Of a DNA stretch of 35,724 nucleotides, positions 5,693-25,235 are shown in pieces (the stretch's first letter is position 1; each line of letters opens with the position of its first letter). The notes under the pieces are model-generated. The model made no database searches. It was given only the letters and a program-made list of their open reading frames with translations, and was not told the origin of the DNA. Both the position numbers and the translations under genes were made by a program. The stretch is from positions 1-35,724 of the IMG/VR virus record IMGVR_UViG_3300035698_013399; one strand, written 5' to 3'. Source of the DNA: a virus.

Positions 5693-5702
5693 AATTTATC
5701 CT

Positions 5703-6944
5703 TTAAATATATATCTTTTCACCATTCACTACAACAAATTCCCCAACGGAAGTGACATAGTTACTGCCAGTAGGTAGATCTTGATCAACTGAAGTTGGTT
5801 GAGATATATTTACATATACTTCCTGATTAATCATTGTTTCTACGTCTGTATCACAATCATCTTCAATTCCATATTTCATAGCGCAAGCATTACCAGTTTC
5901 ACAATTAGTATATTTAGCAAGTACAGATGTATCTTCAGTAGCATCTGAAAGAGAAGTTCCAAATAAATAACACTCTGATATTTTACCATTATATTTCATC
6001 TTTTGATTTTTAGTATAAATTTTAACCATAACGTCGGAACCTCTTGAAACAGAAACGCCATTTATACCATCAAAGACTCCAATATTTATATTTCGAATAC
6101 CACTAACTGAATTTATAGTAACAGGTTTTTCAGTTCCTATATTATTAAATACACTTATACCATTAACTAAAATATCTACATAAAAACAATTCTCTTGTTT
6201 ATAATAAGGATCATCTTCCATTAAATTATCATCAAACATTGTCAAGTTAACACTCTGTATTAAGAGATCAACTGGACTTTTTATAGTATCCATTATATAA
6301 TTATTTTTTATAACATCACTACCAGATCTATTCTGAAGTCTTAAGCATGTTTTAAAGTATGAAGAATTTGCATACCAACTCCACAACCCATCATAATAAT
6401 TACTTTCATCTCTATCTCTATCAGGATCTAATTTCTCTTCAAAAACAGTCCCGGCATATTCTTCATAGTATACAGTACCACCTATACAAACTGAAATGTT
6501 ATGATCATTCCAAACAAAATTTTCATAATCTCCAGGAAACACAACTTCTACTTCTACCTTTGTATCTTCCCAAATAGTTAAATCACATTCTGCTGAATAA
6601 GTCTTAATGTTTTCATTACGCCCTTCTGGGATTGGCATTATCTCTAATTGCCCACCATCTAGTTTTATTATAACACGTATTTCTTCACCCAAAGGTATTC
6701 TTTTACTTGATCTCAATGTTATTGTTCTCAATTTAAAATCTACTGGAGAATATGCACTATCATATTTAACATTAAAGTTTTTAGTTCCAGAAATCTCTCT
6801 TATAGCACTTGCTATACTATCCTGATTACAATCTAAGATATTATCTAAGGTAGTTAATTCAGCAGTGGGTTCAGGGATATTTCTATAATGACCTCTTAAT
6901 GTCATTGCAAAATAATTTCCTTGTTGCCATGGTTCTATAATCAT
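5703..6944 (-). CDS. Uncharacterised virion-associated protein in the fibre cluster
   Basis: A 413-residue beta-rich protein with no signal peptide or membrane segment and no family I recognise. It contains several segments of alternating hydrophobic residues and a Cys-containing C-terminal part. Only 10 bp separate it from the beta-helix fibre gene downstream and 20 bp from the Ser-rich gene upstream, so it is probably co-transcribed with them and structural. T4 has small wedge and fibre-attachment proteins (gp8-gp11) at this map position, but no motif ties this protein to any of them. AAGGAAC lies before the ATG. Confidence 0.6.
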   Translation of the reverse strand: MIIEPWQQGNYFAMTLRGHYRNIPEPTAELTTLDNILDCNQDSIASAIREISGTKNFNVKYDSAYSPVDFKLRTITLRSSKRIPLGEEIRVIIKLDGGQLEIMPIPEGRNENIKTYSAECDLTIWEDTKVEVEVVFPGDYENFVWNDHNISVCIGGTVYYEEYAGTVFEEKLDPDRDRDESNYYDGLWSWYANSSYFKTCLRLQNRSGSDVIKNNYIMDTIKSPVDLLIQSVNLTMFDDNLMEDDPYYKQENCFYVDILVNGISVFNNIGTEKPVTINSVSGIRNINIGVFDGINGVSVSRGSDVMVKIYTKNQKMKYNGKISECYLFGTSLSDATEDTSVLAKYTNCETGNACAMKYGIEDDCDTDVETMINQEVYVNISQPTSVDQDLPTGSNYVTSVGEFVVVNGEKIYI

Positions 6945-6958
6945 TTTTGTTCCTTAAA

Positions 6959-6966
6959 TAATATTT
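6959..6966 (-). promoter_or_regulatory. Possible late promoter box CATAAATA
   Basis: CATAAATA on the - strand, overlapping the stop of the preceding gene, 15 bp before the next start. It matches the T4 late -10 box at seven of eight positions. Because it is so close to the start and the DNA is AT-rich, it could be chance. Confidence 0.3.
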
Positions 6967-8143
6967 ATGTTATTTCCATATTATAACTATCTGTATATTC
7001 TGAACCATGTTCTTTTTCTGATGTTATAATATTACTTATAGTAACTGTATAACATCCTGGAGTAGGATATGTAAACCATTTTATAACTCTATTTTCATAA
7101 GGATCACCTTGTAGTACAACTTCAGACTCAGAAGAAGGACCAGTAATAGTTATTAAAGCAGAATCAACAGTCACTTGACTAGGTTTATTTGTAATTATTG
7201 TCCATTGGTGATTAGTAAGACTTGTATCATGAGAATATCCTGCATCTCCATTACAAGTTATATCTTCTAACCCAGAAGGAGTATATCTAGTAAGTATTAC
7301 ATCATACTCAAGTGGTCCACCTCCAGAAGAATCCGAAGACTCAGATGACGATGAAGAACTTGATGACGATGAAGAACTTGAAGAACTTGAAGAACTTGAA
7401 GAACTTGAAGAACTTGAAGAAGAACTTGATGAAGAACTTGATGAAGAAGACCAATCATTATAATCTGGATCATCTTCAACTGGTAACAACCCTATACCAC
7501 CTTCACTTTGATATGCCCATCCAACAATATAAACTTTAATACCATACCCATTACCTTCTGCATGTTGAATACCAAATGATAGAAGAGAGTTGGCACTTAT
7601 GGTATAACTAAATGGAGATAAATGTGGGTTTTGACCTGTTGCATCCATATATGTATCTGATACATCAATAGCATTAGATACTACATCCAGTGAAGAAAAT
7701 AAAGTCAATGGTATATTCTCGTTAGAATCTTCACCATTATAAATACCTAAAAGATTAGTTGGTATTTGTGGAGACTCATAACTAGAACCGAAATCAAATA
7801 AGTTTAATTTAACACACCCATAAGTAGAAGGAGAATGTACACAAATTTTTATTTTCTCGACAACTATATCAAAATCAGGTGTTACTATCTTACTAAAAAC
7901 AATATCGTTTGGATATTCTTCACTAGATGTATTAGGTTTATTATAAGCAGGAAATTGATATGGATAACTTTCATTCTTATATTCAATAGGTACAACCTTA
8001 GAACATAAAGATTTCTGCTCTATAGAAAAATTAATTCTTGTATCATTAGGAGTAGATGATTCAATAACTACCTTCCGAAATTCATCAGTGATGTTCGGTG
8101 GGAGGACAGTAGGATATATGACATCAATATTTGGGTTACTCAT
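6965..8143 (-). CDS. Appendage protein with 36-residue polyserine linker and PKD/Ig-like C-terminal domain
   Basis: A 392-residue protein in three parts. Residues 1-230 form a beta-rich N-terminal domain of unknown family. Residues 232-267 are 36 consecutive serines, followed by a short Ser/Glu/Asp/Gly stretch. Residues 278-392 look like a PKD/Ig-like beta-sandwich, with YPTPGCYTVTI corresponding to the family's conserved (W/Y)xxPGxYxVT strand. Such domains decorate phage tails and bind surfaces. The polyserine is a flexible spacer and uses both TCN and AGT codons. It sits in the fibre cluster, with an AGGT-type ribosome binding site and ATAAATA-like boxes upstream. Confidence 0.7.
   Translation of the reverse strand: MSNPNIDVIYPTVLPPNITDEFRKVVIESSTPNDTRINFSIEQKSLCSKVVPIEYKNESYPYQFPAYNKPNTSSEEYPNDIVFSKIVTPDFDIVVEKIKICVHSPSTYGCVKLNLFDFGSSYESPQIPTNLLGIYNGEDSNENIPLTLFSSLDVVSNAIDVSDTYMDATGQNPHLSPFSYTISANSLLSFGIQHAEGNGYGIKVYIVGWAYQSEGGIGLLPVEDDPDYNDWSSSSSSSSSSSSSSSSSSSSSSSSSSSSSSSSSSSSESSDSSGGGPLEYDVILTRYTPSGLEDITCNGDAGYSHDTSLTNHQWTIITNKPSQVTVDSALITITGPSSESEVVLQGDPYENRVIKWFTYPTPGCYTVTISNIITSEKEHGSEYTDSYNMEIT
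7343..7450 (-). repeat. Polyserine-encoding low-complexity tract with internal 9-bp repeat
   Basis: 108 bp encode 36 Ser in a row. Within it a 9-bp unit (TCT-TCA-AGT) is tandemly repeated, with longer variants at both ends. The mix of AGT and TCN codons cannot arise by single silent changes, so the array grew by repeat duplication with Ser identity maintained. Confidence 0.9.
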
Positions 8144-8162
8144 TTAAAATACCTTTTATTAT

Positions 8163-8179
8163 TATTTATCTTATTTATT
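8163..8179 (-). promoter_or_regulatory. Two ATAAATA boxes, possible late promoter
   Basis: AATAAATA (8172-8179) and GATAAATA (8163-8170) lie on the - strand in the 72-bp gap before the Ser-rich gene, 20 to 36 bp before its ATG. They resemble the T4-type late -10 box. Support is positional only, in very AT-rich DNA. Confidence 0.3.
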
Positions 8180-8215
8180 GTGTAATTTATATATAAAATA
8201 TATTAAACTCTATTA

Positions 8216-10408
8216 TTATTCAGACTTCATCCAAAAATCTCCATCTCTATCATTCCATAGAACATTCAGAGACTCTTCTGTTATGTCCTCATGCATGATC
8301 CCTGTCTCTCCAATGAAACCATTAAATGTTGTATCATCATCATATTCATCATAAGAAGTGATATTATCTTGTTGTCCACCAAGAAAGAAAGATGTATCGT
8401 TAGGAATATTTACTATATCACTATATAATTGAAGGTTTCCAACTTCTTCATTGTTAACATAAAGTATAATTTGCTTTTTGTCTGTATTCATAGTTGCAGT
8501 CATAAGACTCCACTTATCTAATATATCAGATTCAAGCATGTTAGTATCACCAGAAACAGTAAATATTTCTCCATTGTTATTGTAATCCATCTTCAAAACA
8601 TATCTACTTCTGTTTTCATAATATCCAAATATAACATTAAATGATACAAAAACACCTTCTCCATTAGCAATTATTGAATAAACAGGATCAACAACATCAC
8701 TATTGGGACCGCTATCATGTCCCCAATAACACCCTCTACAATCAATTACTTTACTATCTCCGACTTCATTACCATTCCAAACTCCAATAAGATTAAATGA
8801 TAAATCATTATTTTGAAAATCATTGTTCAACATAGTCTCACTTATACCACCTATACCAAGCGGATCTTCACTCCATACACAAATACCTGCACCATTTTCT
8901 AAACCTGCAAATACATTATCATTAACAATAATAATATCTGTATCTACTGAAGGATAGGATACTGTAGCAGGGGTATACTTCAAACAAGAATTAAAAGGAT
9001 AATCTGTACCAGAATAAACAGTCAATCCTGCAACTTTACCAGTTAGACTTGGAAGAACATTATTAGATGTAACTGTATTATCTGTTATTGTAACATCTCT
9101 ACAAGAAATAATCTCTATTCCATAACAACTTGCACTTATATTATCTAAGAGAGTGTTAAGACCTCTACCAACATACCCTGACACTTCAGAACTAAAGAAA
9201 TTAATATCATTATTTGATATGATAAAATTACTACTAACATTTTTAAGAGAGATACATCCCTTAAAGAATTCTAGAATTGAAACATCAGTGGTTATACTAT
9301 TGTTCTCAATCAATACATCAACGATAGGAGTTGCTGTATCTTCAAATATCTCTATACCATGATTAGTATTAATCATAGTGTTTCCTTCAATAATGAAGTC
9401 TTCACACCCATTAGATATATAAATACCATACAAAGAGTTTTCTATTGTATTATTTTGTATTATATTATCCTGAATGCCAGAGTTGGTTTTGTTTATATAA
9501 ATACAAGAACATACATCAGTAAAATCATTATTTGAGATATTCATATCTTTATTGTAAAATGTTGATCCATCACCGTATACATTAATACATTTTGTATCTT
9601 CATCAAAATCATTGAAAGAATTATTAGTTATAGACAATACACTAGAGTTTCCAGTGAGATCTTTTACTACTATACCTCCCTGTTCTTCATTAAGATTATC
9701 GTTTGATTTAATATATTCAAAAGTATTACTATCTATATAAATACTATCATACAATTCTGTTATTTCTATACCACTATAAATTCCAGATCCTTCTCTTAAT
9801 TCATCATCAGTGAATAGATTATTATTTATATCTATCTCTCCTGAATTATAAATGTTTATTGCTGTTCTTGCATCTGCTTCGATAGACCCAGTATAATCAT
9901 AAGAACTCAATATATTAGAGAATAGATTGTATTTTACTATACCATTATCTGTACTATGAAAATAAACTGGTTGAGCGGTCACGTTATGAAATAAAATACC
10001 ATTCACTTCACAGTTAGAACCTTCAATTTTTATTATTGGTATCTCTATTAACTCTACATCTGGAATGGTAGATGTATAATCTGAAAATAAATCTCCCACT
10101 ATACTATGTTCTTCTGGATCATAAATTGATAAATTGAATGAATCTAATGAATTTTTAGTAATTAGATTTGGATCAGAGTCTTTGTTAGTCCCATATATCT
10201 TTACATTGTCTCTTGTTATTGTACATTCTATATCATTAACATCATAATCACCTACAATAAGAGTAATACTAGCATCTTCTACTATAGTATCACCTACAGT
10301 ATCTATTATAATTTGATCGTGTGCCTTTTGTAGTGTTAAAAAAGGTAATAATATAGTTCCATCACCTGTTGAATCATCACCTAAAGGACTAATATAATAT
10401 TCGTACAT
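8216..10408 (-). CDS. Beta-helix (NosD-like) fibre protein with C-terminal LamG-like segment
   Basis: A 730-residue protein. The first residues (YYISPLGDDSTGDGTILLPF, then TLQKA) are the classic entry motif of pectate-lyase/NosD beta-helices, and residues 30-570 contain many rungs of the form ..IxNNxI.... . From about residue 600, RYVLKMDYNNNG, then DKWSLMTATMNTDKKQIILYVNNEEVG, matches the second half of a LamG/concanavalin-like domain (strand, W-x-h-h-A, YVNG-like turn). The first half is not recognisable here, but a matching first half is present in the gene just upstream. The likely role is receptor binding at the tail tip. It starts 15 bp after the upstream gene, with GGAG before the ATG. 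Confidence 0.75.
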   Translation of the reverse strand: MYEYYISPLGDDSTGDGTILLPFLTLQKAHDQIIIDTVGDTIVEDASITLIVGDYDVNDIECTITRDNVKIYGTNKDSDPNLITKNSLDSFNLSIYDPEEHSIVGDLFSDYTSTIPDVELIEIPIIKIEGSNCEVNGILFHNVTAQPVYFHSTDNGIVKYNLFSNILSSYDYTGSIEADARTAINIYNSGEIDINNNLFTDDELREGSGIYSGIEITELYDSIYIDSNTFEYIKSNDNLNEEQGGIVVKDLTGNSSVLSITNNSFNDFDEDTKCINVYGDGSTFYNKDMNISNNDFTDVCSCIYINKTNSGIQDNIIQNNTIENSLYGIYISNGCEDFIIEGNTMINTNHGIEIFEDTATPIVDVLIENNSITTDVSILEFFKGCISLKNVSSNFIISNNDINFFSSEVSGYVGRGLNTLLDNISASCYGIEIISCRDVTITDNTVTSNNVLPSLTGKVAGLTVYSGTDYPFNSCLKYTPATVSYPSVDTDIIIVNDNVFAGLENGAGICVWSEDPLGIGGISETMLNNDFQNNDLSFNLIGVWNGNEVGDSKVIDCRGCYWGHDSGPNSDVVDPVYSIIANGEGVFVSFNVIFGYYENRSRYVLKMDYNNNGEIFTVSGDTNMLESDILDKWSLMTATMNTDKKQIILYVNNEEVGNLQLYSDIVNIPNDTSFFLGGQQDNITSYDEYDDDTTFNGFIGETGIMHEDITEESLNVLWNDRDGDFWMKSE

Positions 10409-10423
10409 TTAAACTCCAATTAA

Positions 10424-11725
10424 TTATGCAATAGAAGTTACTCTAATTACTATTCCTGGTATAATAGAATAACTATTATCTGGTATTTCAAGAGTAATCT
10501 CATCTCCAACACTATATCCTGATCCTTGACTCGTTATTGAACTAGAATATGCTTTATAATTATTCCATGTAGAACTAAGTGTTACATCCATTTCAAAACC
10601 AACACCGCTCCCAGTAGTAGAATATTGAATTGCTGATGTTCCTCCAGTAGTTTCTACAGTATGACCACTAGAAACACCTACAATACCTGTAACTCCACCA
10701 GTTGCCTCTTCACTGTCACTTGAAGAATCAGAAGAACTTGAAGAGTCGTTATATTCTGATCCTTCTCGTTCTAAATATATTCTATAAGAACAATTTTCGT
10801 TATTCAGATCTTTTATCCACTTTGAACACATGACCCATTCGTTGTCTATTGGTAGACTTTCATATGAGTCTACATAAGAATCTATGTTATTCATATCCTT
10901 GATCTTAAACCACTGCCAGATAGTGAACTGATTCTTCAATTCTAGACCCATCTGATCCCCGTCATGGATTTTTAATAAGTTTTTAGTACTTTCCTCCACA
11001 TATGGAATATAAATAGAATCTCCGTTAATTAGATCGCTTGAATCTATACTACTCAAACCCAAATCATTTGTGTTATCTTCTACATATTCTATTATATCAC
11101 TAGTTAAAACAGGACTATCCAATGTACTACTTAAGTTATTTATACTTTTCTTATCTTTTATAAGATCTTCTTCCACTTCGTTTACATTCCATACACTTTC
11201 TAACGTGTATTGGTTTAAAAGTAGGTTACTAAACTCACCATAGTAATCAGTTAATATTATTGTCCAATCACCCATGATATTCATATTTGTATCAAATATA
11301 AAGTCTGTATCCAGAATTACTCTAGAGAAAAGAATATTATTGAAGTATAGACCAAATTCTTGCACGTTCTTATCAATAAGATCTGGAATAGTAGTTGAAT
11401 TCATCTCAAACGTAAATCTTATTGATTTAGTAGCAGGATGACAATAATTAGTTACATTTAATGTAGATACTGTATTATTCTGTTTAGTCTTATCATCTGC
11501 ATCTAACGCATCTATATTATTCATAGTGTAATTAGAATCACTAGGATATTCTTCATAAATATCTCCCCAGGATGCTACTTTTATAGTCTTACTATCTATG
11601 ATCCCTTTTAAACCAAGAATTACAACATGCATAGCATTTTTTACTACTAAGTTGCATTTAGATAATTCTCTTCCTGAGTTCTTATCGTATAGTTTTAGGA
11701 ATCCTCTTGCAATATTATTTTCCAC
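10424..11725 (-). CDS. Appendage protein: shared N-terminal attachment-type domain, partial LamG, Ser/Asp linker, GSGY domain
   Basis: A 433-residue protein. Residues 1-160 are clearly related to the N-terminus of the protein encoded at 31408-32682 (KVASWGDI, KNVQEFGLY, LDTDFIF in the same order and spacing), suggesting a common attachment domain. Residues 235-322 resemble the first half of a LamG domain (FTIWQWFKIKD, then WVMCSKW, then SYRIYLE) and stop at a Ser/Asp linker (328-341). The C-terminal 90 residues carry GSGYSVGDEITLEIP, a motif common in phage structural proteins. The start is GTG, chosen because AAGGAT lies 7 nt before it. It directly follows the gp7-like gene, as fibre genes follow wedge genes in T4-like phages. 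Confidence 0.7.
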   Translation of the reverse strand: MENNIARGFLKLYDKNSGRELSKCNLVVKNAMHVVILGLKGIIDSKTIKVASWGDIYEEYPSDSNYTMNNIDALDADDKTKQNNTVSTLNVTNYCHPATKSIRFTFEMNSTTIPDLIDKNVQEFGLYFNNILFSRVILDTDFIFDTNMNIMGDWTIILTDYYGEFSNLLLNQYTLESVWNVNEVEEDLIKDKKSINNLSSTLDSPVLTSDIIEYVEDNTNDLGLSSIDSSDLINGDSIYIPYVEESTKNLLKIHDGDQMGLELKNQFTIWQWFKIKDMNNIDSYVDSYESLPIDNEWVMCSKWIKDLNNENCSYRIYLEREGSEYNDSSSSSDSSSDSEEATGGVTGIVGVSSGHTVETTGGTSAIQYSTTGSGVGFEMDVTLSSTWNNYKAYSSSITSQGSGYSVGDEITLEIPDNSYSIIPGIVIRVTSIA

Positions 11726-11747
11726 TAATTTTTATCCTTATATAGAT

Positions 11748-11776
11748 TCTATATTATTTAGTAAGTAAATTGTCAA
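11748..11776 (-). promoter_or_regulatory. Candidate sigma70-type promoter before fibre genes
   Basis: On the - strand TTGACA (11771-11776) is separated by 17 bp from TATAGA (11748-11753). The -35 is perfect and the -10 matches four of six positions. It lies in the 61-bp gap between the gp7-like gene and the first fibre gene and could allow fibre transcription independent of late boxes. Confidence 0.4.
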
Positions 11777-11786
11777 ATAATATATA

Positions 11787-14396
11787 TTATATACTAGTAA
11801 TAACAATATTTAAAATATCTTTAGGATATATGGATAAAGTTTCGTTGAAAGTATATGTATCAACGTTATTTTTATGATTTATCTCATACTCTCTATTTGG
11901 ATTTTCACTATATATTTGATCGACTGCTCCAAGATTTAACTGGGCAACTAAGTTTGTACTATTTACTTTTACTGGACTATACCTTTTTAGTGTGTTCTTA
12001 AATGCTTCTACTTCTTCCCCCTCAATATATATAGGTGCCCCGGTGCTATCATAGTAGTCAACTTCTTTAAAATAAGTCTGTCTCTCTACAGTATCATTTC
12101 TAAAGTTAGCAATGTATGATATATTAGCATTACTTGTTTTTATACCCAAGTTTAAATTATAAACACTATTTTCTAATGAAATAACAATAGAACCTATTTC
12201 ACTATACTTACTATCTGTACAGTAGATTAATAAACTACTGTCAGAAACTTCAACAGAGTATGGTACAATCTTAGATGCTTTCCTGGGAAAGTTCCTGAGA
12301 AGTCTTGTAATATTGATAATATTATTTTCCAATTCAAACATATCAGTTTTGATAGAATGTACAACAGTATTATCATTATCATTTTTATAAATATATGTTA
12401 CGATAGGATAATCACCATAAGAATTAAATGGGTTTGTATCAACAGAGATAATATCAGATACACTACTTATAGGTAGAGTGAATGCAGACATAGAGAGAAA
12501 ATACATCCCACACTTCATCTCATAATCTGTATCAAGAGTATCAAAAGAATTATCAAAAGAGTCTAATGAATCTAATGAGTCCGAAGAGTTACCATCTTTA
12601 AATTTGTCAAGACCCATAACAATCATATCGTGATTTAACATATAAGATGAAGTTGAATCACCACCACCAATGTTTTCATTTTTCTCCCATAGGTTTATAA
12701 TATTATTCCATGATACATTCTCACCCTTAGTCCAGATCTTATTACCACTAAGTTCTATATTTCCTGAGTTAGAAATTATCCAATAATCTTTATGTTCGGG
12801 AGTTAATGAGGGTGGTTGTCTAAGAGAATTATTTGCATCCCAATATCCAACATTATTATACCCACTACTTATAGTGTTTTTAGTATAAGAATAACTAGGA
12901 ATAAATATATCAAATACTGAACCTATTAACAAATCTTCAAAACCATCAGAGTCTTCAATTGTCTTCTGAAGTTTATTAGTTACATATCTTTCTTGCATAA
13001 CAAACAAATCTGTATATTCTTCATCTATAACTTGGTAATCGACAAGAGAAGTATTATCTTCGTTGTAAAAACTTCCATCTCTTGAAAGAAATATAGTTCT
13101 CTTCACTTCTGGAGTAAGTATACTTTCTGGAATAAAAGTTCCAGAAGAATCAAGTATCAATTCTTTGACATCAATTATATATGAAATAACATATTCTACA
13201 TCAGATATACCTTCATTGTAGTCATACAAAACATCTGTATCATCATATAGATTCAACCACAACCAATTTACACTTATCACTTCTTTAAATTTCTTTCCAT
13301 TATCATAATCTGATAATCTTGTATCATTAGATATTGCCATACCTTCTTTAATCATATCATTTGACATTGATTCTCTCAATGTATTATATCTTATTCTTTT
13401 AAGATTATACTTATCTACACCTCCATCATCTTCTACAGTAATATAGTATAGATTATTAGTGTGATATTGTTTAAGTCTATCACTTGTATTAATAACTTTG
13501 GGTATAAACATCACATCTTCAATAGTATCAAAATAAGTTGGAATCACAAAATCAAAATTATCATCATATATTGATTCGTTGTCTTCATATAGATATAGTA
13601 TATTTTCATTAAGAATGGCATAATAATCATCATTTATTTTTAATATATCTGACGCTTCTGAAATATACCACCAATCTTCTCTGGTACTGTCTGATATAAA
13701 CGCTTTGCCATTACATAAAGATAGTTTATGACTATCAGTATTTAAAAATTTATTAATAGTTAAGGGTAGTTCAGATTCATAGTTAGTGTTTATTATAGTC
13801 TCATCTGTGATAACTCTGGGAGATGTGAATAACTTAAATCTCTTTCCTGAAACATCTTCATCTTCTGATTCAATAATCTCATCGAATGAACGATTTTCTG
13901 AATCATTATAATTGGTATTACCATAGAAGTTGAAAAGATTTTCTAAAAGAGTTTTAGTTCCCTTTGCTTTATGTAAATCTCCAGAATTAAGAGTAAAGAA
14001 TTTAAAATATGGTATGATATTTTCTTTAACAAATATTTCTATATCGGGTATACCACCAATTTCTCGTTCTTGCCATTTCTTTATCATTAATGAAACAGTA
14101 TCTTTGAAATGTTCTGTATCAAAATATTCTGATATCTTATTAAGAAGAATATCAGAATATATAGTTTCTTCACCATCAGAAATCTTTAAGTTATTGTCAA
14201 TGTTTTTTTGGAATAGATTATCAGCATCTTCTTTTAAAACACTGTTAATCTTTATCTCATTAAATCTTTCATAGATTTTAGAAAATTCATTAGCAATTGA
14301 TTGTAAAATAGTATCATATTTATCATTATCATGAAGTTGAACTAACTCTTCATTAGATATTTCTTTTAGAAAATTATAGAAGTTAAAATCTGACAT
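11787..14396 (-). CDS. Probable baseplate wedge protein (gp7-like)
   Basis: An 869-residue protein without signal or membrane segments. The first 150 residues are helical and contain a segment ending HKAKGTKTLLENLFNFYG (about 142-159), a pattern typical of wedge/tail proteins of T4-like phages and of P2 gpI-type proteins. The rest is beta-rich with a Ser/Asp run near residue 600. It follows directly after the gp6-like gene (10 bp), which is where gene 7 lies in T4 (gp7 is 1032 residues). It would link gp6, gp25 and the spike complex in the wedge. The assignment rests on position, size and the N-terminal motif. A P2 gpI-like tail protein is the alternative. Confidence 0.55.
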   Translation of the reverse strand: MSDFNFYNFLKEISNEELVQLHDNDKYDTILQSIANEFSKIYERFNEIKINSVLKEDADNLFQKNIDNNLKISDGEETIYSDILLNKISEYFDTEHFKDTVSLMIKKWQEREIGGIPDIEIFVKENIIPYFKFFTLNSGDLHKAKGTKTLLENLFNFYGNTNYNDSENRSFDEIIESEDEDVSGKRFKLFTSPRVITDETIINTNYESELPLTINKFLNTDSHKLSLCNGKAFISDSTREDWWYISEASDILKINDDYYAILNENILYLYEDNESIYDDNFDFVIPTYFDTIEDVMFIPKVINTSDRLKQYHTNNLYYITVEDDGGVDKYNLKRIRYNTLRESMSNDMIKEGMAISNDTRLSDYDNGKKFKEVISVNWLWLNLYDDTDVLYDYNEGISDVEYVISYIIDVKELILDSSGTFIPESILTPEVKRTIFLSRDGSFYNEDNTSLVDYQVIDEEYTDLFVMQERYVTNKLQKTIEDSDGFEDLLIGSVFDIFIPSYSYTKNTISSGYNNVGYWDANNSLRQPPSLTPEHKDYWIISNSGNIELSGNKIWTKGENVSWNNIINLWEKNENIGGGDSTSSYMLNHDMIVMGLDKFKDGNSSDSLDSLDSFDNSFDTLDTDYEMKCGMYFLSMSAFTLPISSVSDIISVDTNPFNSYGDYPIVTYIYKNDNDNTVVHSIKTDMFELENNIINITRLLRNFPRKASKIVPYSVEVSDSSLLIYCTDSKYSEIGSIVISLENSVYNLNLGIKTSNANISYIANFRNDTVERQTYFKEVDYYDSTGAPIYIEGEEVEAFKNTLKRYSPVKVNSTNLVAQLNLGAVDQIYSENPNREYEINHKNNVDTYTFNETLSIYPKDILNIVITSI

Positions 14397-14406
14397 ATTA
14401 TTATTC

Positions 14407-16614
14407 CTATTGGGTTATGATGCTTCCAAGGACAGGGAATTCTGATTCAAGTAACTCATAATCACCAAGTTCATTTACTCTTTCTTCCATCTCAGAAGAT
14501 CTTGGTATTAATGTTATTCTTACTCTTGCTACACCTGGGATATCACTAATAGTATCTGCTATATCATTAGTATTTAGTCTATCACCGAGAGATCTATTTA
14601 TAGGTAAAAAAGTATTATTAATTTCGGATCTAATTGAGTTCGTAACGTCATCCAGTGTTAGTATACTGGTTTCATCTTTTTTAAATATAACTTTAACATC
14701 AAACGTTTGATATATAGGTGCAATTATGTGGTTTCTAACTGTTATCATATCAATTTTATCAATTGCATCTAGAATAGTATCTTTTGTTTCAATACTAAGA
14801 TATCCACCGTTCTCTGGTACCGGGACTATAAACACATCATTAGAATCTCTTGAGTTGTCTATATAAACATTACATTCACCTATTAATAAGTTTCTGTTCT
14901 CTTTAACAAGTATAGTACAAAGTATAGATGCGATTTCTGTCTCTGCATCAATAGTTGTATTATCAAGAATATAAATACCCTTAATTACATACCAACCATC
15001 AACATCACCTTCTCTATTACAGCAACATGATTCAGAGTTATAACCATTTGAATTATAAACAAATTTATCGAATCTTACATTACAAGACTCACCATTTATA
15101 TATAGAGCAATATCATTTCCATCTACAGAAGGGTATGAACCTGAAGCGTCATCTTTATTTGGATTAAACACCTCGACTTCAAAGTGAACTATATTGCAAC
15201 ATTCATCAGAAGATGCTTCTACATCAACTCTTTGTTGTATTAAAGCACTCTGATCATCGTCACAAGTCCTTGTAGTATCTACATATAATGCTGACGATGT
15301 ACCGAAATTAAGAACATCTGAAACATTCAGTGATTCAGGAACCAGGATTGTATCACCTGATTCTACAGTGTAATATTCATAAAAACCATCGTTTGACCAA
15401 TCTGTTGGAACCTTAACATCATCACTTGAACCAACAACAGAAATTTCATTGTAACTATCAAATCTAGAGTTTGTAAATTCATTGTAACATGGATTATTAA
15501 CAAGTTCTGCATCTATAGCACCATCATGATTAAATACATTCACATCTGTTATGTATGGGTATTCTCCAAGAATAAATGTACTGTAGTCTTCTTCTGTAAC
15601 AAGTCTGTTCTGAATACCGTAGTACAAAGGAGCAAACTTTTTAATCCTGTCAAGAGTTTCTATGTTACTTCCATCAGTACTCTCACTTGCTTGAACTACT
15701 GTAAACTTACCTTCAATAGTATCTAGTTGATTATTTGGGTTTACAAAGTAAATAGAATCAGTAACGTTAGAGATAGTACCTGCTGATATCTTACCATCAG
15801 ACCCACTGGTAGCGACGTACTCAATTCTTATTTTCTTACCTGAAGGAGGTACAAGACCAAAACTACCTTCCGCAAATAAGATCTCTAGTAGACCCTTTTC
15901 ATTTATAAATGGAACAAATATTTTATCATTAGGTCCATTGTGGAACCAAGTAACTGCATTTTCCCAACGTTCTTCTTCGTTACCATCATTCATCACATAT
16001 ACTTTAACTTCTTTCCAATCAATATACGGATTAGGAATTTCAAAACTCTGAAGATCTTCTCCATCACTTACGTACTCAATAGATAAAGGTACACCTTGGA
16101 TTAGTTCAAGTGATACTTTATTTACATTTTCATCTGAGGAAGATGCAGGATCTTTTATATTAATCAGTGCATCTGAAGTATTTGTGAATACAAGAGATTT
16201 ATTTCTTTCATTTGATGTGTTTGATGCAAACTGGACATTCTCGGAAATAATTGCTGTCCATCCTTCATAACTTGATATGTTATCTTCTATACCCATAGAA
16301 TCAAAATCAGGTTCAATAACAACTGAAGTTTTTGATGCAACAAACCCATGAGGTTTATAACCAACCAACCTCGCAAGCATATTACCTGTTTCGTAAAGAT
16401 TACAGTTTGAAATGTATTGTTCGTTAGCACTACTATTTGCATAATTACCCATTATAGCACCAGTATAAGCAAACATATTAACTAAGTGTGAAAGAAACGA
16501 TCCCTCAAAGTTTGCATCTTTGAATTCATCAGAAGATTGAAGAAACTCAGTTAGACTTTCCTTAATACCTTTATAATCTATATCTTTGAAATTTATCTGT
16601 TGATTACTTGCCAT
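14407..16614 (-). CDS. Baseplate wedge protein gp6 (baseplate J family)
   Basis: A 735-residue protein. The N-terminus closely follows T4 gp6: NQQINFKDIDYKGIKESLTE, then FLQSSDEFKDANFEGS, an Asn/Ser-rich NEQYISNC segment and LVGYKPHG. Central residues around 300-350 (LDRIKKFAPLYYGIQNRLVTEEDY) are the conserved baseplate-J signature, and the C-terminus carries RSLGDRLNTNDIADTISDIPGVARVRI, the hallmark end of the family. gp6 dimers make the ring that joins baseplate wedges around the hub. T4 gp6 is 660 residues; the extra length here is in the middle, including a Cys-rich segment (about 530-545). It lies 10 bp after gp25. TAAAGGATAAATC before the ATG is a strong ribosome binding site. Confidence 0.9.
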   Translation of the reverse strand: MASNQQINFKDIDYKGIKESLTEFLQSSDEFKDANFEGSFLSHLVNMFAYTGAIMGNYANSSANEQYISNCNLYETGNMLARLVGYKPHGFVASKTSVVIEPDFDSMGIEDNISSYEGWTAIISENVQFASNTSNERNKSLVFTNTSDALINIKDPASSSDENVNKVSLELIQGVPLSIEYVSDGEDLQSFEIPNPYIDWKEVKVYVMNDGNEEERWENAVTWFHNGPNDKIFVPFINEKGLLEILFAEGSFGLVPPSGKKIRIEYVATSGSDGKISAGTISNVTDSIYFVNPNNQLDTIEGKFTVVQASESTDGSNIETLDRIKKFAPLYYGIQNRLVTEEDYSTFILGEYPYITDVNVFNHDGAIDAELVNNPCYNEFTNSRFDSYNEISVVGSSDDVKVPTDWSNDGFYEYYTVESGDTILVPESLNVSDVLNFGTSSALYVDTTRTCDDDQSALIQQRVDVEASSDECCNIVHFEVEVFNPNKDDASGSYPSVDGNDIALYINGESCNVRFDKFVYNSNGYNSESCCCNREGDVDGWYVIKGIYILDNTTIDAETEIASILCTILVKENRNLLIGECNVYIDNSRDSNDVFIVPVPENGGYLSIETKDTILDAIDKIDMITVRNHIIAPIYQTFDVKVIFKKDETSILTLDDVTNSIRSEINNTFLPINRSLGDRLNTNDIADTISDIPGVARVRITLIPRSSEMEERVNELGDYELLESEFPVLGSIITQ

Positions 16615-16624
16615 GATTTATCCT

Positions 16625-17032
16625 TTAAGTAAGTTTTTCTAATGATAGGGTTTCGTCAAAAGTACCAGAAGTAATACCATCTTTAACTAGATATGAAATG
16701 ATAACTCTAACTTCTCCATTGCTTATATTATCTGTATTAATATCTATCTCTGAAATATCAATTGAAGGTTCATAAATTTTCAAAGATGTTTCTATTTTAT
16801 TGATAATTTCAAACTTAATGAATTCTCCAGGTGCATTATTTTCAAATAAGATATCACTCATATTGGTCCCGAATTCTTCTTCAAGATTCTTTCCACTATT
16901 ATTAGACACGAGTATACTATAGATAGATTGGTTTATAGCATCAACATCTTCTAACATCTTTAGATCTCCAGTTTCATCTATTTCTAATGAAAATGGTATA
17001 TCTCTTCTATATGCGAATGGTGTATTAGACAT
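16625..17032 (-). CDS. Baseplate wedge protein gp25 (gp25/W/TssE family)
   Basis: A 135-residue protein matching gp25 in length (T4: 132) and pattern: N-terminal PFAYRRDIPFSLEID, then INQSIYSILVSNNSGKNLEEEFGTNMSDILFE and a C-terminal VRVIISYLVKDG strand. gp25 ties the inner baseplate to the first sheath ring and nucleates sheath assembly. The normally invariant Glu-Pro-Arg motif reads EPS here (YEPSIDISEI), so the Arg is missing. It sits between spike and gp6, the usual neighbourhood, with AAGGAAAA before the ATG. Confidence 0.9.
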   Translation of the reverse strand: MSNTPFAYRRDIPFSLEIDETGDLKMLEDVDAINQSIYSILVSNNSGKNLEEEFGTNMSDILFENNAPGEFIKFEIINKIETSLKIYEPSIDISEIDINTDNISNGEVRVIISYLVKDGITSGTFDETLSLEKLT

Positions 17033-18924: not shown

Positions 18925-20229
18925 TTATTTTATCCATAGTTTATCTAGTCTTATAATAGATACTCTTTGTTTATAATACTCAGATGTAGATCTATTAAAT
19001 TCGTGATCAACATCTACAACCAACCACTTACCTGCTATCTCTCTAATATTCTCTGAATACTCCTCAGAACTTTTATATACTATATTTATTGTTTTCCCAG
19101 GTTTTATTCTATTTAGTTTTCCAGAAGTACCATTTATAAGTATCTTTGTATCAACCTGTTTGAATATATTTTCAGATAAAAGAGAAGATGCTTTACTTTT
19201 TATCATTTCGTTATCTTCTCTACCTCTTGATCCTGTTAAAGTATACATACCATAAATATTATTAATGGTAGATGGATCTGAGTAGATTTCATTTATCTTA
19301 GTTTCTGGTCTATTTAAATATCCTGTCTTGAAAATGAAATTTTTCTTTTTAAACCAATTGTATCTTTCGAATGTATTTCCACTCAAACCATTATTTAAAA
19401 GTTTCTTGTTTGAAATATTTGGTAAGTAATTCTGAACAAACAACGATTTATCAGGAATAGCATCATTAAGATTTGTATTAAGAACATCTATAACATCAAT
19501 CTCAATTGCTTCACCTGCATTATCTATTATGTTTTTTATTGATTTAAAATGTATTTCATTTTCAAAAGTAGAATAACATAGATAATTTGTATTTGTAGAA
19601 GATCTACTATAACTTTTTAAATTCTCAATAGTATCCATTATATTCCAATTGGGAACACAATAACTATCTATTTTATATAATGATTGTTCACCTTCAAATT
19701 TATACTTACCTTTATTCTTATTTAGAAAAGTACCAACAAGTTCTTTAACTATATCAGAAGAACTCTTACCTGAAAATCCCTTTGATATCTTCCAATATAA
19801 TAAGTTTCTATATAGAGGAAACTGTGCCACCGTTAACGTTACTCTATCATGTTCAGTTCCTATTATGTGACCTTCTGTATTAGATGCTATATTTATTATT
19901 TCAAATACACAGGAGTTTTCACCACCCTCGCTTCTATTAGATTTTAGATTTATTTTTAAAAATTCACATCCATTTTTATATAAATATTTTCGCTTAATAC
20001 CAAATACATCATCAAACTCAATTGTACCAAATACCATATAACTGTTTAATGATTCTCTTAAAGATAATTTTCTAGGAAGATCTATTCTAATTGGTTTGTT
20101 CTTTTCTGTGATAGGATTATAATTCATATCAAGTAAAGTGATTACAGGTAATTCATCATAGTAAGTACCTACAGCGGTATTTTCAGTTATATTAGATTTT
20201 GAATTAGAAGTTGGTTTATTCTTTGCCAT
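18925..20229 (-). CDS. Baseplate hub protein (gp27-like)
   Basis: A 434-residue protein between the gp26/51-like region and the gp5-like spike, the position of the T4 hub protein gp27 (391 residues) on which the spike trimer sits. After a disordered Ser/Asn N-terminus, residues 25-160 form a beta-rich domain (RKLSLRESLNSYMVFGTIEFDD, then VFEIINIASNTEG) and residues 175-260 a segment ending SYCVPNWNIMDTIENLKSYSRS, similar to the tube-like second domain of gp27/VgrG/gpD hubs. The C-terminal RIKPGKTINIVY, then WLVVDVDHEFN, is also hub-like. The ATG overlaps the stop of the small upstream frame (TAATG), implying translational coupling. Confidence 0.78.
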   Translation of the reverse strand: MAKNKPTSNSKSNITENTAVGTYYDELPVITLLDMNYNPITEKNKPIRIDLPRKLSLRESLNSYMVFGTIEFDDVFGIKRKYLYKNGCEFLKINLKSNRSEGGENSCVFEIINIASNTEGHIIGTEHDRVTLTVAQFPLYRNLLYWKISKGFSGKSSSDIVKELVGTFLNKNKGKYKFEGEQSLYKIDSYCVPNWNIMDTIENLKSYSRSSTNTNYLCYSTFENEIHFKSIKNIIDNAGEAIEIDVIDVLNTNLNDAIPDKSLFVQNYLPNISNKKLLNNGLSGNTFERYNWFKKKNFIFKTGYLNRPETKINEIYSDPSTINNIYGMYTLTGSRGREDNEMIKSKASSLLSENIFKQVDTKILINGTSGKLNRIKPGKTINIVYKSSEEYSENIREIAGKWLVVDVDHEFNRSTSEYYKQRVSIIRLDKLWIK

Positions 20230-20441
20230 TAATATGTCCCATTTTTCTTTTTCTGTTCTTCTAATTTTTTAAGATGTTCATTATAGAAAGTTAATATTAT
20301 ATCAAACTCTGCAATACTAATATTTCCTGAATCAATAAATGACATTTTCTCTTCGATAAACATTCTAAACTGAGCATTGAGAATATCTATATATTTTTCT
20401 GCACTTAGATATCGAAGAAGAATAAGATAAAATCCGACATA
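20229..20441 (-). CDS. Small open frame overlapping the gp26-like gene; probable -1 frameshift extension (gp51-like chaperone)
   Basis: A frame open from 20441 to its stop at 20229-20231, in the -1 frame relative to the gp26-like gene, whose 3' end it overlaps. It encodes about 66 residues downstream of a likely slip site, ending FDIILTFYNEHLKKLEEQKK. The only in-frame ATG (20361-20363) has no Shine-Dalgarno sequence and would give just 45 residues, unlike every neighbour. The most economical reading is expression as a C-terminal extension by ribosomal frameshifting, the usual device for tail assembly chaperones (lambda G/GT). In T4, genes 26, 51 and 27 lie in this order. The stop overlaps the start of the hub gene. 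Confidence 0.6.
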   Translation of the reverse strand, partial: YVGFYLILLRYLSAEKYIDILNAQFRMFIEEKMSFIDSGNISIAEFDIILTFYNEHLKKLEEQKKKNGTY

Positions 20442-21346
20442 TCAACTACCGTTTCTTTTTCACAATGTTCACATTTAAACTCACCGAAACTCTTATAGAA
20501 ATCTCTATCTGTATCTCTGTAAATACTTCTCACTGTATTAAGATTTTCGGATGTTAATGTATTAAAAATAGTTTCTCTTTGTTCTTGATTAAGAACAGTT
20601 ACAACATCACCAATCTTATATGCTTTTAATGACATTGCATAGCTAAGCATCTTAACACTTACATATTCTTCAGTTGATCTATTTTGAACATATATCATAT
20701 CTTTACGGGTAGGAGGAACAATAAGGAATGATAAATTATCATTAATCTTCAATGTTCCTGATGGTATTTTATTAAAATCCTTGCTATTATTTTCTATATT
20801 TTCTATAATATTTCCTGTATTTACTTTAATAAACTTTCCGCATTCTTTATTACTACACTTAATTGAAAAAGTACTATCAGTTCCTCTTGATAAACACTTT
20901 AGATATATTAATAGATATAACCAATCATAAACAGTTAAATCCTCACTCTTAATACCGTTTGTTATACATCTAGTTAAAATAGCATCTAACGCTAAAGTAA
21001 GTTCATTTTCTGCTATCGATGTTTTTATTTTATCTTCATCTTCCCCATCGACTTTCTTTACACTATTTTCAAACACTTCAAGTGATTTTGCAATATATTT
21101 ATATTCATTAACAGTCATAGATCTAAGATTAACTGTCTTGGAACTATCAAATAGAAGTTTTATTGAAGATTCATGTAACTCTGAATTAAGTATATTCAAA
21201 ACATCATTAAAATTAACGTTGGTGTTTGATAGTTCCTTTACTATAGGTTGTTCTATTGGGGTTTGTTCTTCTACAATAGGTATCTGTTGAATTCCGGTTG
21301 GCATTCCTGAATTTGGTACATTGTTAAGAAGTTCTTTGTTATCCAT
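20405..21346 (-). CDS. gp26-like baseplate hub assembly protein / tail assembly chaperone
   Basis: A 313-residue cytoplasmic protein. Residues 40-155 are helical, and a zinc-ribbon-like set of cysteines is visible: Cys164-x4-Cys169 and Cys292-x2-Cys295. The central helical region and metal site resemble the T4_baseplate (gp26) family of myoviruses. Its position between tail tube and hub agrees with T4 gene 26. The family is thought to act with gp51 in hub/tape-measure assembly. The gene ends over a run of Phe codons from which a -1 frame continues for about 66 codons. It has a strong ribosome binding site (AAGGGAGAGA) and late-type boxes upstream, after a terminator, so it begins a transcription unit. 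Confidence 0.7.
   Translation of the reverse strand: MDNKELLNNVPNSGMPTGIQQIPIVEEQTPIEQPIVKELSNTNVNFNDVLNILNSELHESSIKLLFDSSKTVNLRSMTVNEYKYIAKSLEVFENSVKKVDGEDEDKIKTSIAENELTLALDAILTRCITNGIKSEDLTVYDWLYLLIYLKCLSRGTDSTFSIKCSNKECGKFIKVNTGNIIENIENNSKDFNKIPSGTLKINDNLSFLIVPPTRKDMIYVQNRSTEEYVSVKMLSYAMSLKAYKIGDVVTVLNQEQRETIFNTLTSENLNTVRSIYRDTDRDFYKSFGEFKCEHCEKETVVDMSDFILFFFDI
20429..20432 (-). other. Candidate -1 slippery site (T TTT A)
   Basis: On the - strand the Phe306 codon TTT of the gp26-like gene is preceded by T and followed by ATC. A P-site Phe-tRNA could re-pair perfectly after slipping back one base, entering the 70-codon open frame. It is not a canonical X-XXY-YYZ heptamer. The overlap window runs from 20441 to 20405, and a shift at the following TTC-TTC-TTC run is possible but would re-pair less well. 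Confidence 0.4.
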
Positions 21347-21508: not shown

Positions 21509-22051
21509 CTAAGATTTACCACCGGAAGTATAATAACTATATTGGATGGTAGCATCAAATACAAGTGGTGTATCCTTAGTTTCATGTCCATAAGTTACAA
21601 CACTTATTCCAGATAACCATGCAAGATGTAGTTCATATTCACTAGCATGTCCACCACCTGATACGTTAGTTGGTGCAAAACTTTGTAGTTTAACACTACC
21701 CATATAATCAGCAGGAGCATGAAATACTGGACCTTCTGTATAATTAAACACATTAGAAATAGTCTTATACCATTCTTTAAGAACTTTATATTCTCCATCA
21801 ATGATAAATTGACAGGACAGTGGTTCATAAGTTGGTGTACCTGCCATATGATAGTTCATACCAAAATACGATACTGTAACAGGGTTAATAGTCAAACCTG
21901 GAATAGCAGATGTTCTTACAGAAGCATTAACTAAATTTTCAGTTAAATTTTCAGAAAATCCTTGACCTGTAAAGTTAACCCTAAAATGATAGGGTCTAGC
22001 AATATCAGTAATTTCTTTTTTGAAATTCTCTATTGAATGAAAATTCGCCAT
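21509..22051 (-). CDS. Tail tube protein (gp19)
   Basis: A 180-residue major tail tube subunit; T4 gp19 is 163 residues. The pattern is typical of the family: ARPYHFRVNF at 19-28, SAIPGLTINPVTVSYFGMNYHMAGTPTYEPLSCQFIIDGEY (about 48-88), an NVFNY motif and a C-terminal ELHLAWLSGISVVTYGHETKDTPLVFDATIQYSYYT strand pair. Stacked hexameric rings of this protein form the DNA conduit inside the sheath. It lies 16 bp after the sheath gene, with AAAGGATAA before the ATG, and is followed by a strong terminator, consistent with a high-copy sheath/tube transcript. Confidence 0.93.
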   Translation of the reverse strand: MANFHSIENFKKEITDIARPYHFRVNFTGQGFSENLTENLVNASVRTSAIPGLTINPVTVSYFGMNYHMAGTPTYEPLSCQFIIDGEYKVLKEWYKTISNVFNYTEGPVFHAPADYMGSVKLQSFAPTNVSGGGHASEYELHLAWLSGISVVTYGHETKDTPLVFDATIQYSYYTSGGKS

Positions 22052-22067
22052 TATTTATTATCCTTTA

Positions 22068-24398
22068 TTAAATATTTCTAGTAATAAGTTCTTGAAGATT
22101 TACACCTGATCGAGTAATGAAGAATCTCAACCATACAAATTCAGCAACAGGAGTTGGTTTAATGTAAATATCAATATAAAGTTCATTGTTATCTATAACG
22201 CTATCAGTGTTATTGGTATCATCACAAACAACAATATAATCTTCAAGACCTCTTCTAGTAGAAACAAACTGGAGAATACTATTCATTCTAGAAGTAACTT
22301 CTTCTCTTGTAAATGCGTCATTAAACTCAAAGATAAAGTCTTCTGCAGACTTACGACAGTTACGTTTAAGAAAGTTAACCAAACGTCTAACATTAACTCT
22401 ATTCAGATAACTATTCTTAACTTGAGTAGTCTTTTGACCATAGATAGTAATTTCATTATTGATAATGGCAATTGGATTAATATTGTTTGAGTAAAGTACA
22501 TCTCTTGAACTAAGACTAAATTTCTCACGAAGATCAAGAACTTCTGGAAGGGCACCTCTTCTAGTTCCAGCAGGTGCATACCATGGAAAGTATTCATTGT
22601 CTACTTGAGAATATTTACCTGCTACAGTACCAGAAGGAGCAACCCAACGATATATACCATTATACTTATCATAAATCTTCAAGCGGTTATGATAAACAGA
22701 GGCATAACTTGATTCACCAAGAAGAAGAGTTTCATTAATCCAATTGGCATATGTTTCTGGAGTCTTAATACCTTCAGGAGTATCAATTATGGCAAACGCT
22801 TCACCATTAAGATCTTCTGCAAGTTGAGCATATTCCTTCTTAGCGGCAAGTGGACTATCCCCATCAATGATAAGATCAATTTCGACATCCTCTTCCCTGT
22901 AAATATCACAAGCATTAAGAATTTCACCAACTAATGTAACTTCTCCAATCTCACTTCTGTCAACAGTATCAGTAAAGTTTGTTAGATCTCCATTAGTACC
23001 ACCATTTAGTGCTACTGGAAGCATTGTTGTTACTTCGCTCAGTTGTGCTGAAGTTGCTAACTTAGCGCGGATCACACTAGAGTTTTCATTAATAACATCT
23101 TCAACAAAGATTTTGATTCCATTTGCATCAAACGTTTCAGTATTTGTTGAACACTTAAAGTATTCAACCTTATCCCAAGAAGATCCATCAGTAGTAAGAA
23201 CAAAAAGTCCAAACTCTTCAGCATTATCAGGAAGATCAGCAGGGAGATCATTCAGGAAATCAAATTTAGCAAGAAGATCTTTATAAGTTACCTTAGAAAG
23301 TCCACGGATAGTACCACTATTCCATGTACTCATATCTTCTGGAACATAAGAGTCTGATTTAACTGTTTCTCTCTGCATAGTAACACTATAAGGATACTTC
23401 TTAATGTTTTGAGCATCTTCATAACCTAGCAAGAAGATGTAAGTGTCGTTGTAAGAACTACCAGGACCCACAGCAGAAATTACAAGATCTTCACTCTTAT
23501 CTTCTGAATTTATTGTAACATTGTATTCTAAAGTACTTGTATCTTCAGGATCAAAGTAAACAGGAGTAACAGTAGTTCCTTGCTTGAAGCGAATACCACC
23601 AGTATGACTATCTTCTACCCATGTTACTCTCTTCCAAGTTACGCCACCATCTATAGTTAACTCATCTACAGTAGTATCCCAAGACAGAATAGTTCCACTT
23701 TCTACATCACCATCCAAGATTGCTTTATCTAACTCTGCTTGAATATTGAAAGATGCACTAGTAAGACCTGCTGTAGTAGCAATGTACACTTGACCGTTGG
23801 ATTCTACACCATTGAAATATTCAGTAGTATCATCTTCCCAACCATCATGTACAAGATCACCAATATTATACTCTACATTTCTATCTCGCGGATATGCCCT
23901 ATTCAGAGTATTACGAGTATAGAATGCTTGAACACTCTTAGCACTAGTATTGTAATAATCATCTACCTCAGTTTGGTCAGGGATAGTAGATTCACCAGAA
24001 GTTTCGATGTAATCTGTAAGATCATTATTATAGATTTCAGGATCAAGATTAGCGACATCTGGAAGACTTCCATCCACGGTACCTTCGCTATTAATATCGA
24101 ATCCAACAGCACTAACAATAGCACTGGGACGATCTACAACTCTTGTAAATACAAGGTTTCCACCTCTTGAAAAATAAGTACTTGCGGCAAAGAAGGTATT
24201 AGCAGTATCTTCACATGGAGTACCAAATAAACTTACAAATTCTTTTTCTGTGGGTACAACATTAATTTTAAATGCAGGTCCCTTTGATGCATTACCAATA
24301 AGTAATGCAGAAGTTGAAACTTGATTACTTACATAATCTGAAATATCAATCTCTTTAGTTCTAACAGCAGGAGATAATCCGCTTTTAATTGTTGCCAT
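22068..24398 (-). CDS. Tail sheath protein (gp18)
   Basis: A 776-residue contractile sheath subunit (T4 gp18: 659). The N-terminus (LSPAVRTKEIDISDYVSNQ) and first domain (SALLIGNASKGP) are diagnostic. The C-terminal conserved core holds GIYRWVAPSGTVAGKYS, RRGALPEVLDLREKF, INPIAIINNEITIYGQKTTQ, then RVNVRRLVNFLKRNCRKSAEDFIFEFND and the final strand VAEFVWLRFFITRSG. The extra length sits in the protruding middle domains (about 90-420). It has AAGGAAAAGGAATAA before the ATG and a perfect TATAAATA late box 29 bp upstream of the start. Tube follows directly. Confidence 0.95.
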   Translation of the reverse strand: MATIKSGLSPAVRTKEIDISDYVSNQVSTSALLIGNASKGPAFKINVVPTEKEFVSLFGTPCEDTANTFFAASTYFSRGGNLVFTRVVDRPSAIVSAVGFDINSEGTVDGSLPDVANLDPEIYNNDLTDYIETSGESTIPDQTEVDDYYNTSAKSVQAFYTRNTLNRAYPRDRNVEYNIGDLVHDGWEDDTTEYFNGVESNGQVYIATTAGLTSASFNIQAELDKAILDGDVESGTILSWDTTVDELTIDGGVTWKRVTWVEDSHTGGIRFKQGTTVTPVYFDPEDTSTLEYNVTINSEDKSEDLVISAVGPGSSYNDTYIFLLGYEDAQNIKKYPYSVTMQRETVKSDSYVPEDMSTWNSGTIRGLSKVTYKDLLAKFDFLNDLPADLPDNAEEFGLFVLTTDGSSWDKVEYFKCSTNTETFDANGIKIFVEDVINENSSVIRAKLATSAQLSEVTTMLPVALNGGTNGDLTNFTDTVDRSEIGEVTLVGEILNACDIYREEDVEIDLIIDGDSPLAAKKEYAQLAEDLNGEAFAIIDTPEGIKTPETYANWINETLLLGESSYASVYHNRLKIYDKYNGIYRWVAPSGTVAGKYSQVDNEYFPWYAPAGTRRGALPEVLDLREKFSLSSRDVLYSNNINPIAIINNEITIYGQKTTQVKNSYLNRVNVRRLVNFLKRNCRKSAEDFIFEFNDAFTREEVTSRMNSILQFVSTRRGLEDYIVVCDDTNNTDSVIDNNELYIDIYIKPTPVAEFVWLRFFITRSGVNLQELITRNI

Positions 24399-24479: not shown

Positions 24480-25235
24480 TTATATTCCGTTCCAATTTGG
24501 ACCAATTACTTCAGTATTATCAATTATAACAGCATCATCTAGGTCATCTGATATATTAAAGAAATTAATAGGTATATGAAGAATAGGTCCACCTGAATTT
24601 TCAACAACCGGTTTATATATCCACCCCTTTATTGTGAAGTCTAAAGAACCTCTTACAATTCTCTTTTCTGTGTCTAACCAATCTAAACTAATATCTCTAT
24701 TAACATCTCCAGAAAAATCTATCCTTAACTCTCTTGGTACGTCTTGTAAGTAGTCAACGTTCTCCTTTACTTTAACAATGACATATGGTGATAAAAAAGG
24801 TACTATATTTTCTGTAATTTGATGTATATGTCCCTCATATTTTGCAAGTATATCAAGATTCATACCAATATTATAAGGAATTGGCATTTTATCTTCAAAT
24901 TGTCTTAAGTCTCTTTTTATTCTTCTTTTTCTATAAGTATTAAGAACTCTTTCTTGATCAAACCCTATACTAGTTATAGAGCATGAAAATCTTGGAACTT
25001 TTGTATCATATCTTGAAGATGGACTCTGGTTATCATATATTTGTTCTAAGTACTTTCTCTCCTTAGATGCATATACGATATCAATATCAGTCTCAACTCC
25101 GCCAGGGAGAGTAGAGATACTATCGTCACTATCTTCAATATCAACAACTTTCATACCTTTAAATAAAGACATGAATACTAAAACTTGATTACGTATACTA
25201 TTATAATAATAAAATTCCTGATTAGGTTTTCTCAT
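24480..25235 (-). CDS. Tail sheath stabilisation and completion protein (gp15-like)
   Basis: A 251-residue protein with the pattern of T4 gp15 (272 residues): FYYYNSIRNQVLVFMSLFKGMKV at the N-terminus, a VYASKERKYLEQI motif, PRFSCSITSIGFD, MNLDILAKYEGHIHQITENIVPFLSPY and near the C-terminus GSLDFTIKGWIYKPV. Each has a clear counterpart in gp15 (for example VNGWMYPPV). A gp15 hexamer caps the finished tail and joins it to the neck. The gene lies just before sheath and tube, matching T4 gene order 15-16-17-18-19 except that the terminase genes are placed further upstream. AAGGAATATA precedes the ATG. Confidence 0.85.
   Translation of the reverse strand: MRKPNQEFYYYNSIRNQVLVFMSLFKGMKVVDIEDSDDSISTLPGGVETDIDIVYASKERKYLEQIYDNQSPSSRYDTKVPRFSCSITSIGFDQERVLNTYRKRRIKRDLRQFEDKMPIPYNIGMNLDILAKYEGHIHQITENIVPFLSPYVIVKVKENVDYLQDVPRELRIDFSGDVNRDISLDWLDTEKRIVRGSLDFTIKGWIYKPVVENSGGPILHIPINFFNISDDLDDAVIIDNTEVIGPNWNGI

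Follow-up and report, generated by a model that had tools for sequence, protein, structure and literature searches.

Tail-assembly chaperones of long-tailed phages

Phage lambda makes its tail-assembly chaperone in a short form (gpG) and a long form (gpGT) from one gene, via a −1 frameshift near the 3' end at the slip site GGGAAAG, and this gene lies directly downstream of the tail tube gene. Such G–T frameshifting was described in a 2016 review as conserved in long-tailed phages 'except T4' (PMC5009743). T4 instead carries two separate genes on opposite strands, 26 and 51, which involve no frameshift and encode a short and a long paralogue of one family, gp26 (208 aa; PF12322, E 9e-64) and gp51 (249 aa; PF12322, E 4e-52), each a full member of that family. 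T4 gp51 is composed of the gp26 core plus a C-terminal extension of ~48 residues beyond the domain, comparable to the extension described below, while the frame that follows T4 gene 26 in the −1 phase is gene 25 and not an extension. A short gene and a long fusion gene for T4-like chaperones have been described by Vladimirov, Gautam and Davidson (2022), as reported in PMC10885494, and PMC12846349 credits the same work with poly-T frameshift sites in T4-like phages; by these citing accounts, a frameshifted chaperone in T4-like phages was largely anticipated by that study. In the Vandenendeviridae phage Adele, a chaperone −1 frameshift was inferred from conservation, with the extension open in all genomes and a poly-T motif GTTTTT (PMC12846349). 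The survey of Sullivan et al. (2010) gives, in the part considered here, a cyanophage gp51 only ~20% as long as T4 gp51, and names no mechanism there (PMC3037559).

Here, we analyse DNA of an uncultivated T4-like phage (IMG/VR record IMGVR_UViG_3300035698_013399; the whole stretch of 35,724 nt is referred to as the window). To judge from sequence and analogy, its gp26-like gene very probably undergoes programmed −1 ribosomal frameshifting at GAT-TTT, giving 313-aa and 372-aa forms of a lambda G/GT-like tail-assembly chaperone. With lambda it shares the two forms from one gene, the −1 shift near the 3' end and the place directly downstream of the tube gene, whereas the sequence family and slip site differ and no tape-measure gene is seen beside it; from phage Adele it differs in phage family, motif and position. 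What is new is an uncultivated clade whose non-canonical shift site departs from the X_XXY_YYZ heptamer and which has ~8 dual-coded codons; we found no earlier description of the clade or its site, Vladimirov et al. (2022) being represented here by the papers that cite it.

Gene order and the overlapping frame

The relevant features of the window are as follows.

24480–25235, minus strand: sheath stabiliser
22068–24398, minus strand: tail sheath gene, 776 aa (phrog_23, E 3.7e-72; PF17482)
21509–22051, minus strand: tail tube gene, 180 aa, directly upstream of the gp26-like gene (phrog_45, E 9.8e-23)
20405–21346, minus strand: gp26-like gene, putative short form (TAC-N), 313 codons, 313 aa (PF12322; phrog_150, E 1.3e-10), with homologues in 10 other loci
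20428–20437, minus strand: invariant TCGGATTTTA, zero-frame codons TCG GAT TTT A.., identical in all loci of the clade
20405–20428, minus strand: 8-codon dual-coded overlap, zero frame ILFFFDI-stop and −1 frame YLILLRYL, both conserved in 10 loci
20229–20441, minus strand: −1 open frame of 70 codons, putative C-terminal extension (TAC-C), predicted to code from 20429 to the stop at 20231–20229
20227–20231, minus strand: TAATG, the extension stop (TAA) overlapping the ATG of the hub gene
18925–20229, minus strand: hub-like gene, 434 aa, in the position of T4 gene 27, named by its position before the gp5-like gene; a counterpart open frame occurs in the relative L002
17062–18912, minus strand: gp5-like hub/lysozyme
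16625–17032, minus strand: gp25-like gene
14407–16614, minus strand: wedge protein

The gp26-like protein belongs to PF12322, the T4 gp26/gp51 family, with 38.4 bits over profile positions 7–218 of 219, above the Pfam gathering cut-off of 24.5 bits. Pfam and PHROGs gave no match for the 434-aa hub-like protein itself. They likewise identified no tape-measure gene downstream of the gp26-like gene or elsewhere in the window, where several proteins of 390–900 aa have no family match; it may be among the six large genes beyond the wedge gene (2990–14396, minus strand), which have at most a weak tail-protein match, or lie outside the window. On the plus strand (302–2956), a UvsX-like recombinase, a late sigma factor and an SbcD-like nuclease adjoin the tail genes, a T4-type set.

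The −1 frame overlaps the end of the gp26-like gene and is open over its whole 70 codons, as far as the next gene, and its first 25 codons contain no ATG, GTG or TTG. Because a TGA in this frame (20444–20442) and the zero-frame TAA (20407–20405) bound the overlap, a shift is confined to 37 nt, which hold a single T_TTT (20432–20429), within TCGGATTTTA (20437–20428; local sequence TCG GAT TTT ATC). A shift at T_TT.T (20432–20429) would read ...SDF and then Y from TAT (20429–20427), and the predicted fusion is exactly 372 aa. The first-pass annotation had placed the end of the −1 frame at the hub start (TAATG) and a T-TTT-A slip site in the overlap, with products of 313 and about 372 residues, and the coordinates bear this out. 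The site, G_GAT_TTT, is nevertheless not the canonical X_XXY_YYZ heptamer, its P-site half not being a single-base run, and is better described as GGA-TTT-T with U_UU.U in the A site.

Conservation in uncultivated relatives

Relatives in IMG/VR (L002–L013) were reached via the sheath protein and the tube alignment. Ten loci include the gp26 end, nine of them distinct (L010 and L011 are identical at the junction), and all ten have the same −1 extension, with 52–58 codons beyond the stop, and TCGGATTTTA with its U_UU.U tetramer at the overlap; the motif is also present near the contig end of an eleventh locus (L015). Counted from the first base of the extension stop, the hub gene starts at −5 to +6 nt wherever its start is readable. 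Since gp26 identity between the relatives and the window is only about 31–34%, the invariant motif stands out. Amino acids are invariant in 37 gp26 columns, but codons in only 7 of these 37 (one of them Trp), and the slip triplet makes up three of the seven. TCG at the slip site is the only invariant six-fold codon in gp26, although only 2% of the window's serine codons, and 7–18% of those in the relatives, are TCG. From each locus's own codon usage, the spelling TCG-GAT-TTT has a probability of 1–6% per locus, and the product over the 10 loci is ~1e-15; this assumes independent loci, an assumption that is only partly valid because several come from one metagenome. All viral contigs were also scanned with a synonym-tolerant pattern of SDFIL(F/Y)(F/L)YDF*; with every synonym allowed, only the gp26 loci of this clade and L015 were returned, all with TCG-GAT-TTT.

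The extension is under protein-level selection. After the zero-frame stop, the −1 frame contains no stops in the 10 loci, compared with 42 and 52 in the other two frames, and column shuffles of the post-stop alignment were never free of stops. The protein similarity of the extension reaches z = 11 against these shuffles (0/1000 reach the observed value), differences are distributed over the codon positions as 37/18/45%, and the 20 pairs whose dS was usable give a median NG86 dN/dS of 0.34. Within the overlap, the −1 residues are variable before the slip site and conserved from it on (Y-(S/T)-I-L-L-R-F-L); in the zero frame, ILFFYDF is conserved. With both frames conserved, the overlap has ~8 dual-coded codons, and the proposed shift marks where the conserved −1 product starts. 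Conservation of the overlap and slip site in relatives, which the first-pass annotation had named as a check on its programmed frameshift and two-form lambda G/GT analogy, thus holds in 10/10 loci and supports both. Outside the clade, tblastn searches of isolated phages with the gp26 of the window, the L012 gp26 and the L012 extension gave no match, nor did a genome-contig scan with the extension; Pfam, PHROGs and PDB sequence searches with the extension returned chance-level matches only.

Probable function of the two forms

In the proposed mechanism, most ribosomes would end at the zero-frame TAA and yield the 313-aa short form, while slipped ribosomes would pass this stop, add a helical C-terminal domain and yield the 372-aa long form. 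If the pair acts as gpG/gpGT does in lambda, the tape-measure protein would be coated by the short form, and the extra domain of the long form would recruit the tail-tube protein; the chaperone function, like the slippage itself, its exact step and its rate, is what we infer from these comparisons. The modelled short form (pLDDT 73) has as its best PDB match the HK97 tail-assembly chaperone gp13 (2ob9) with Z 5.7, the next being 3.9. However, the alignment covers 93 residues of a 107-residue target at only 13% identity, and the match, though in keeping with a chaperone, could at Z 5.7 reflect a common arrangement and is below the level of proof. The extension modelled alone is poor (pLDDT 66) and consists of helices only. 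Foldseek searches against viral models returned proteins of T4-like phages, both of the baseplate hub and of the hub assembly chaperone kind.

The frameshift could also be real and its product a component of the hub or baseplate rather than a chaperone of the tape-measure protein. The names given to gp26 in PHROGs and databases are those of a baseplate hub subunit, and earlier T4 genetics put gp26 in the hub (PMC3004832). However, that review of T4 also classes gp26 and gp51 among the chaperones of hub assembly and states that the particle lacks gp51 (PMC3004832), a short/long pair beside the tube gene is typical of tail chaperones, and HK97 gp13 is the best structural match. We therefore regard a hub component as unlikely, although it is the strongest of the competing readings.

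Fusion or separate protein

The extension could alternatively be a separate small protein acting in trans, the 'short gp51' of cyanophage annotations, made by reinitiation after the gp26 stop or from a non-AUG start. It is annotated as a separate gene in databases for S-PM2, S-RIM8, P-SSM3 and Cygsa01; the Cygsa01 junction has a TAATG overlap, and the extension of S-SCSM1 sits in another frame. However, the relatives share no start codon for it. The first ATG lies +14 to +44 nt after the stop at non-homologous places, and 9/10 loci have no ribosome-binding site there (one locus has an RBS-like sequence), in agreement with the first-pass annotation, which saw no usable start for the second frame. 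Moreover, conservation in the window clade sets in at the slip site, ahead of every ATG, and a separate protein would leave the synonymous invariance of TCGGATTTT in the upstream gene unexplained; T4 gp51, for its part, carries the homologous domain joined to a gp26-like core. We consider a separate protein improbable, distinctly more so than the hub component.

A fused extension also agrees with the isolated T4-like phages tabulated, of which 15/15 have the same −1 layout, with 46–64 codons past the stop. The gp26 gene ends with T_TTT_TTC before the −1 extension in the cyanophages S-CAM8, S-RIM8, S-PM2, P-SSM3 and MED4-213, and also in Vibrio 1.081, AsFcp_2, Moby, X1, SRB7757 and Bakedbeans; the slip site is TTTTTTT in Melnitz and the tetramer T_TT.C in Bue1, Cygsa01 and K413, a canonical heptamer being common in chaperones of this type but not obligatory. 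The chaperones of these phages and the putative one of the window belong to the same family (PF12322) and lie in the same place before the hub genes; in both, the short form has a T-rich site at its end and is followed by a −1 extension. The clade differs in having GGA-TTT-TA instead of T_TTT_TTC, seven zero-frame codons after the site instead of 0–1, and no isolated member. The extensions of the 15 isolated phages match the C-terminus of T4 gp51 (hhalign 97%, E 4e-10). That of the clade is colinear with them but the match is weak (hhalign 49%), and compared directly with T4 gp51 by hhalign it gave no match.

The comparison with the separate T4 genes 26 and 51, also made in the first-pass annotation, holds at the level of gene number as well as of family. 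Whole records of S-PM2, S-RIM8, AsFcp_2 and Vibrio 1.081 have one PF12322 gene each and T4 has two; the window (a fragment) has one copy, and so does a 191,782-bp relative contig, in which the single gp26 homologue is found by the clade's own profile and missed by the Pfam model. This pattern, in which most T4-like groups have a single gene carrying a −1 extension and T4 has two paralogues, fits the citing papers' account of Vladimirov et al. (2022), is now extended to an uncultivated clade, and accounts for the short cyanophage gp51. It further points to the separate 'baseplate hub assembly catalyst' genes, and to the gp51 'missing' from records such as AsFcp_2, as annotation artefacts of frameshifting.

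Three records deserve separate mention. The extension is present and unannotated in S-CAM8 (L022, 3684–3865) and AsFcp_2 (L031, 1908–2075), the latter resembling the Aeromonas group (Aeh1), for which gp51 was reported missing. In S-SCSM1 (L023, 3687–3874), a sixteenth isolated phage, the gp51-like extension lies, in contrast to the other cyanophages examined, in frame +1 (= −2) with respect to gp26; a shift of −2, a start of its own or an error in the sequence could account for this.

The shift signal

The two frames might instead be joined by RNA-polymerase slippage on the T run at the junction. Efficient slippage of bacterial RNA polymerase needs more than TTTT, which is all that the run offers, and the flanking TCGGA is equally invariant; we hold this to be very improbable. 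A −1 frame open by chance, or a sequencing error in a single gene, which the low G+C of the window (31%) and a single contig at first view might have suggested, is refuted because the relatives conserve the extension, which recurs in 10 other loci (several metagenomes) and in isolated phages under protein-level selection.

For ribosomal slippage, the A-site half (U_UU.U) of G_GAT_TTT alone permits perfect re-pairing. At GAT-TTT, a fraction of ribosomes would move back by one base, with tRNA-Phe in the A site re-pairing from UUU to UUU. Among the serine codons only TCG ends in G, and this G would leave the P-site tRNA-Asp a first-position G–C pair on GGA after the slip. U_UU.U was the third best −1 tetramer in E. 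coli, where tetramers needed a stimulator (PMC4066793). No conserved RNA structure was found near the slip site, with no compensatory pairs in the loci of the clade, and the RNA of the window folds no better than shuffled sequences. We tentatively propose, with less than even confidence, an undescribed signal that is driven by U_UU.U in the A site and by near-cognate P-site re-pairing of GAU to GGA, which would demand the invariant TCG, and that works with neither a heptamer nor a conserved RNA structure before ~8 dual-coded codons. The unusual slip site offers a small, testable model of tetramer-driven frameshifting.

Two elements near the site vary among the loci. In 8/11 loci, compared with a background of 2–28%, a Shine–Dalgarno-like GAGG/GGAG precedes TCGGATTTT by ~11 nt, with hardly any variation in the spacing. 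It resembles dnaX-type stimulators and is absent in the window, L007 and L015. A strong downstream hairpin (TTCTTCTACG...CGTAGAAGA), a few nt past TTTTA in L005, L006, L008 and L012, was considered but not adopted as a stimulator, having no compensatory changes and not forming in the window; in those four loci it may be a lineage-specific stimulator.
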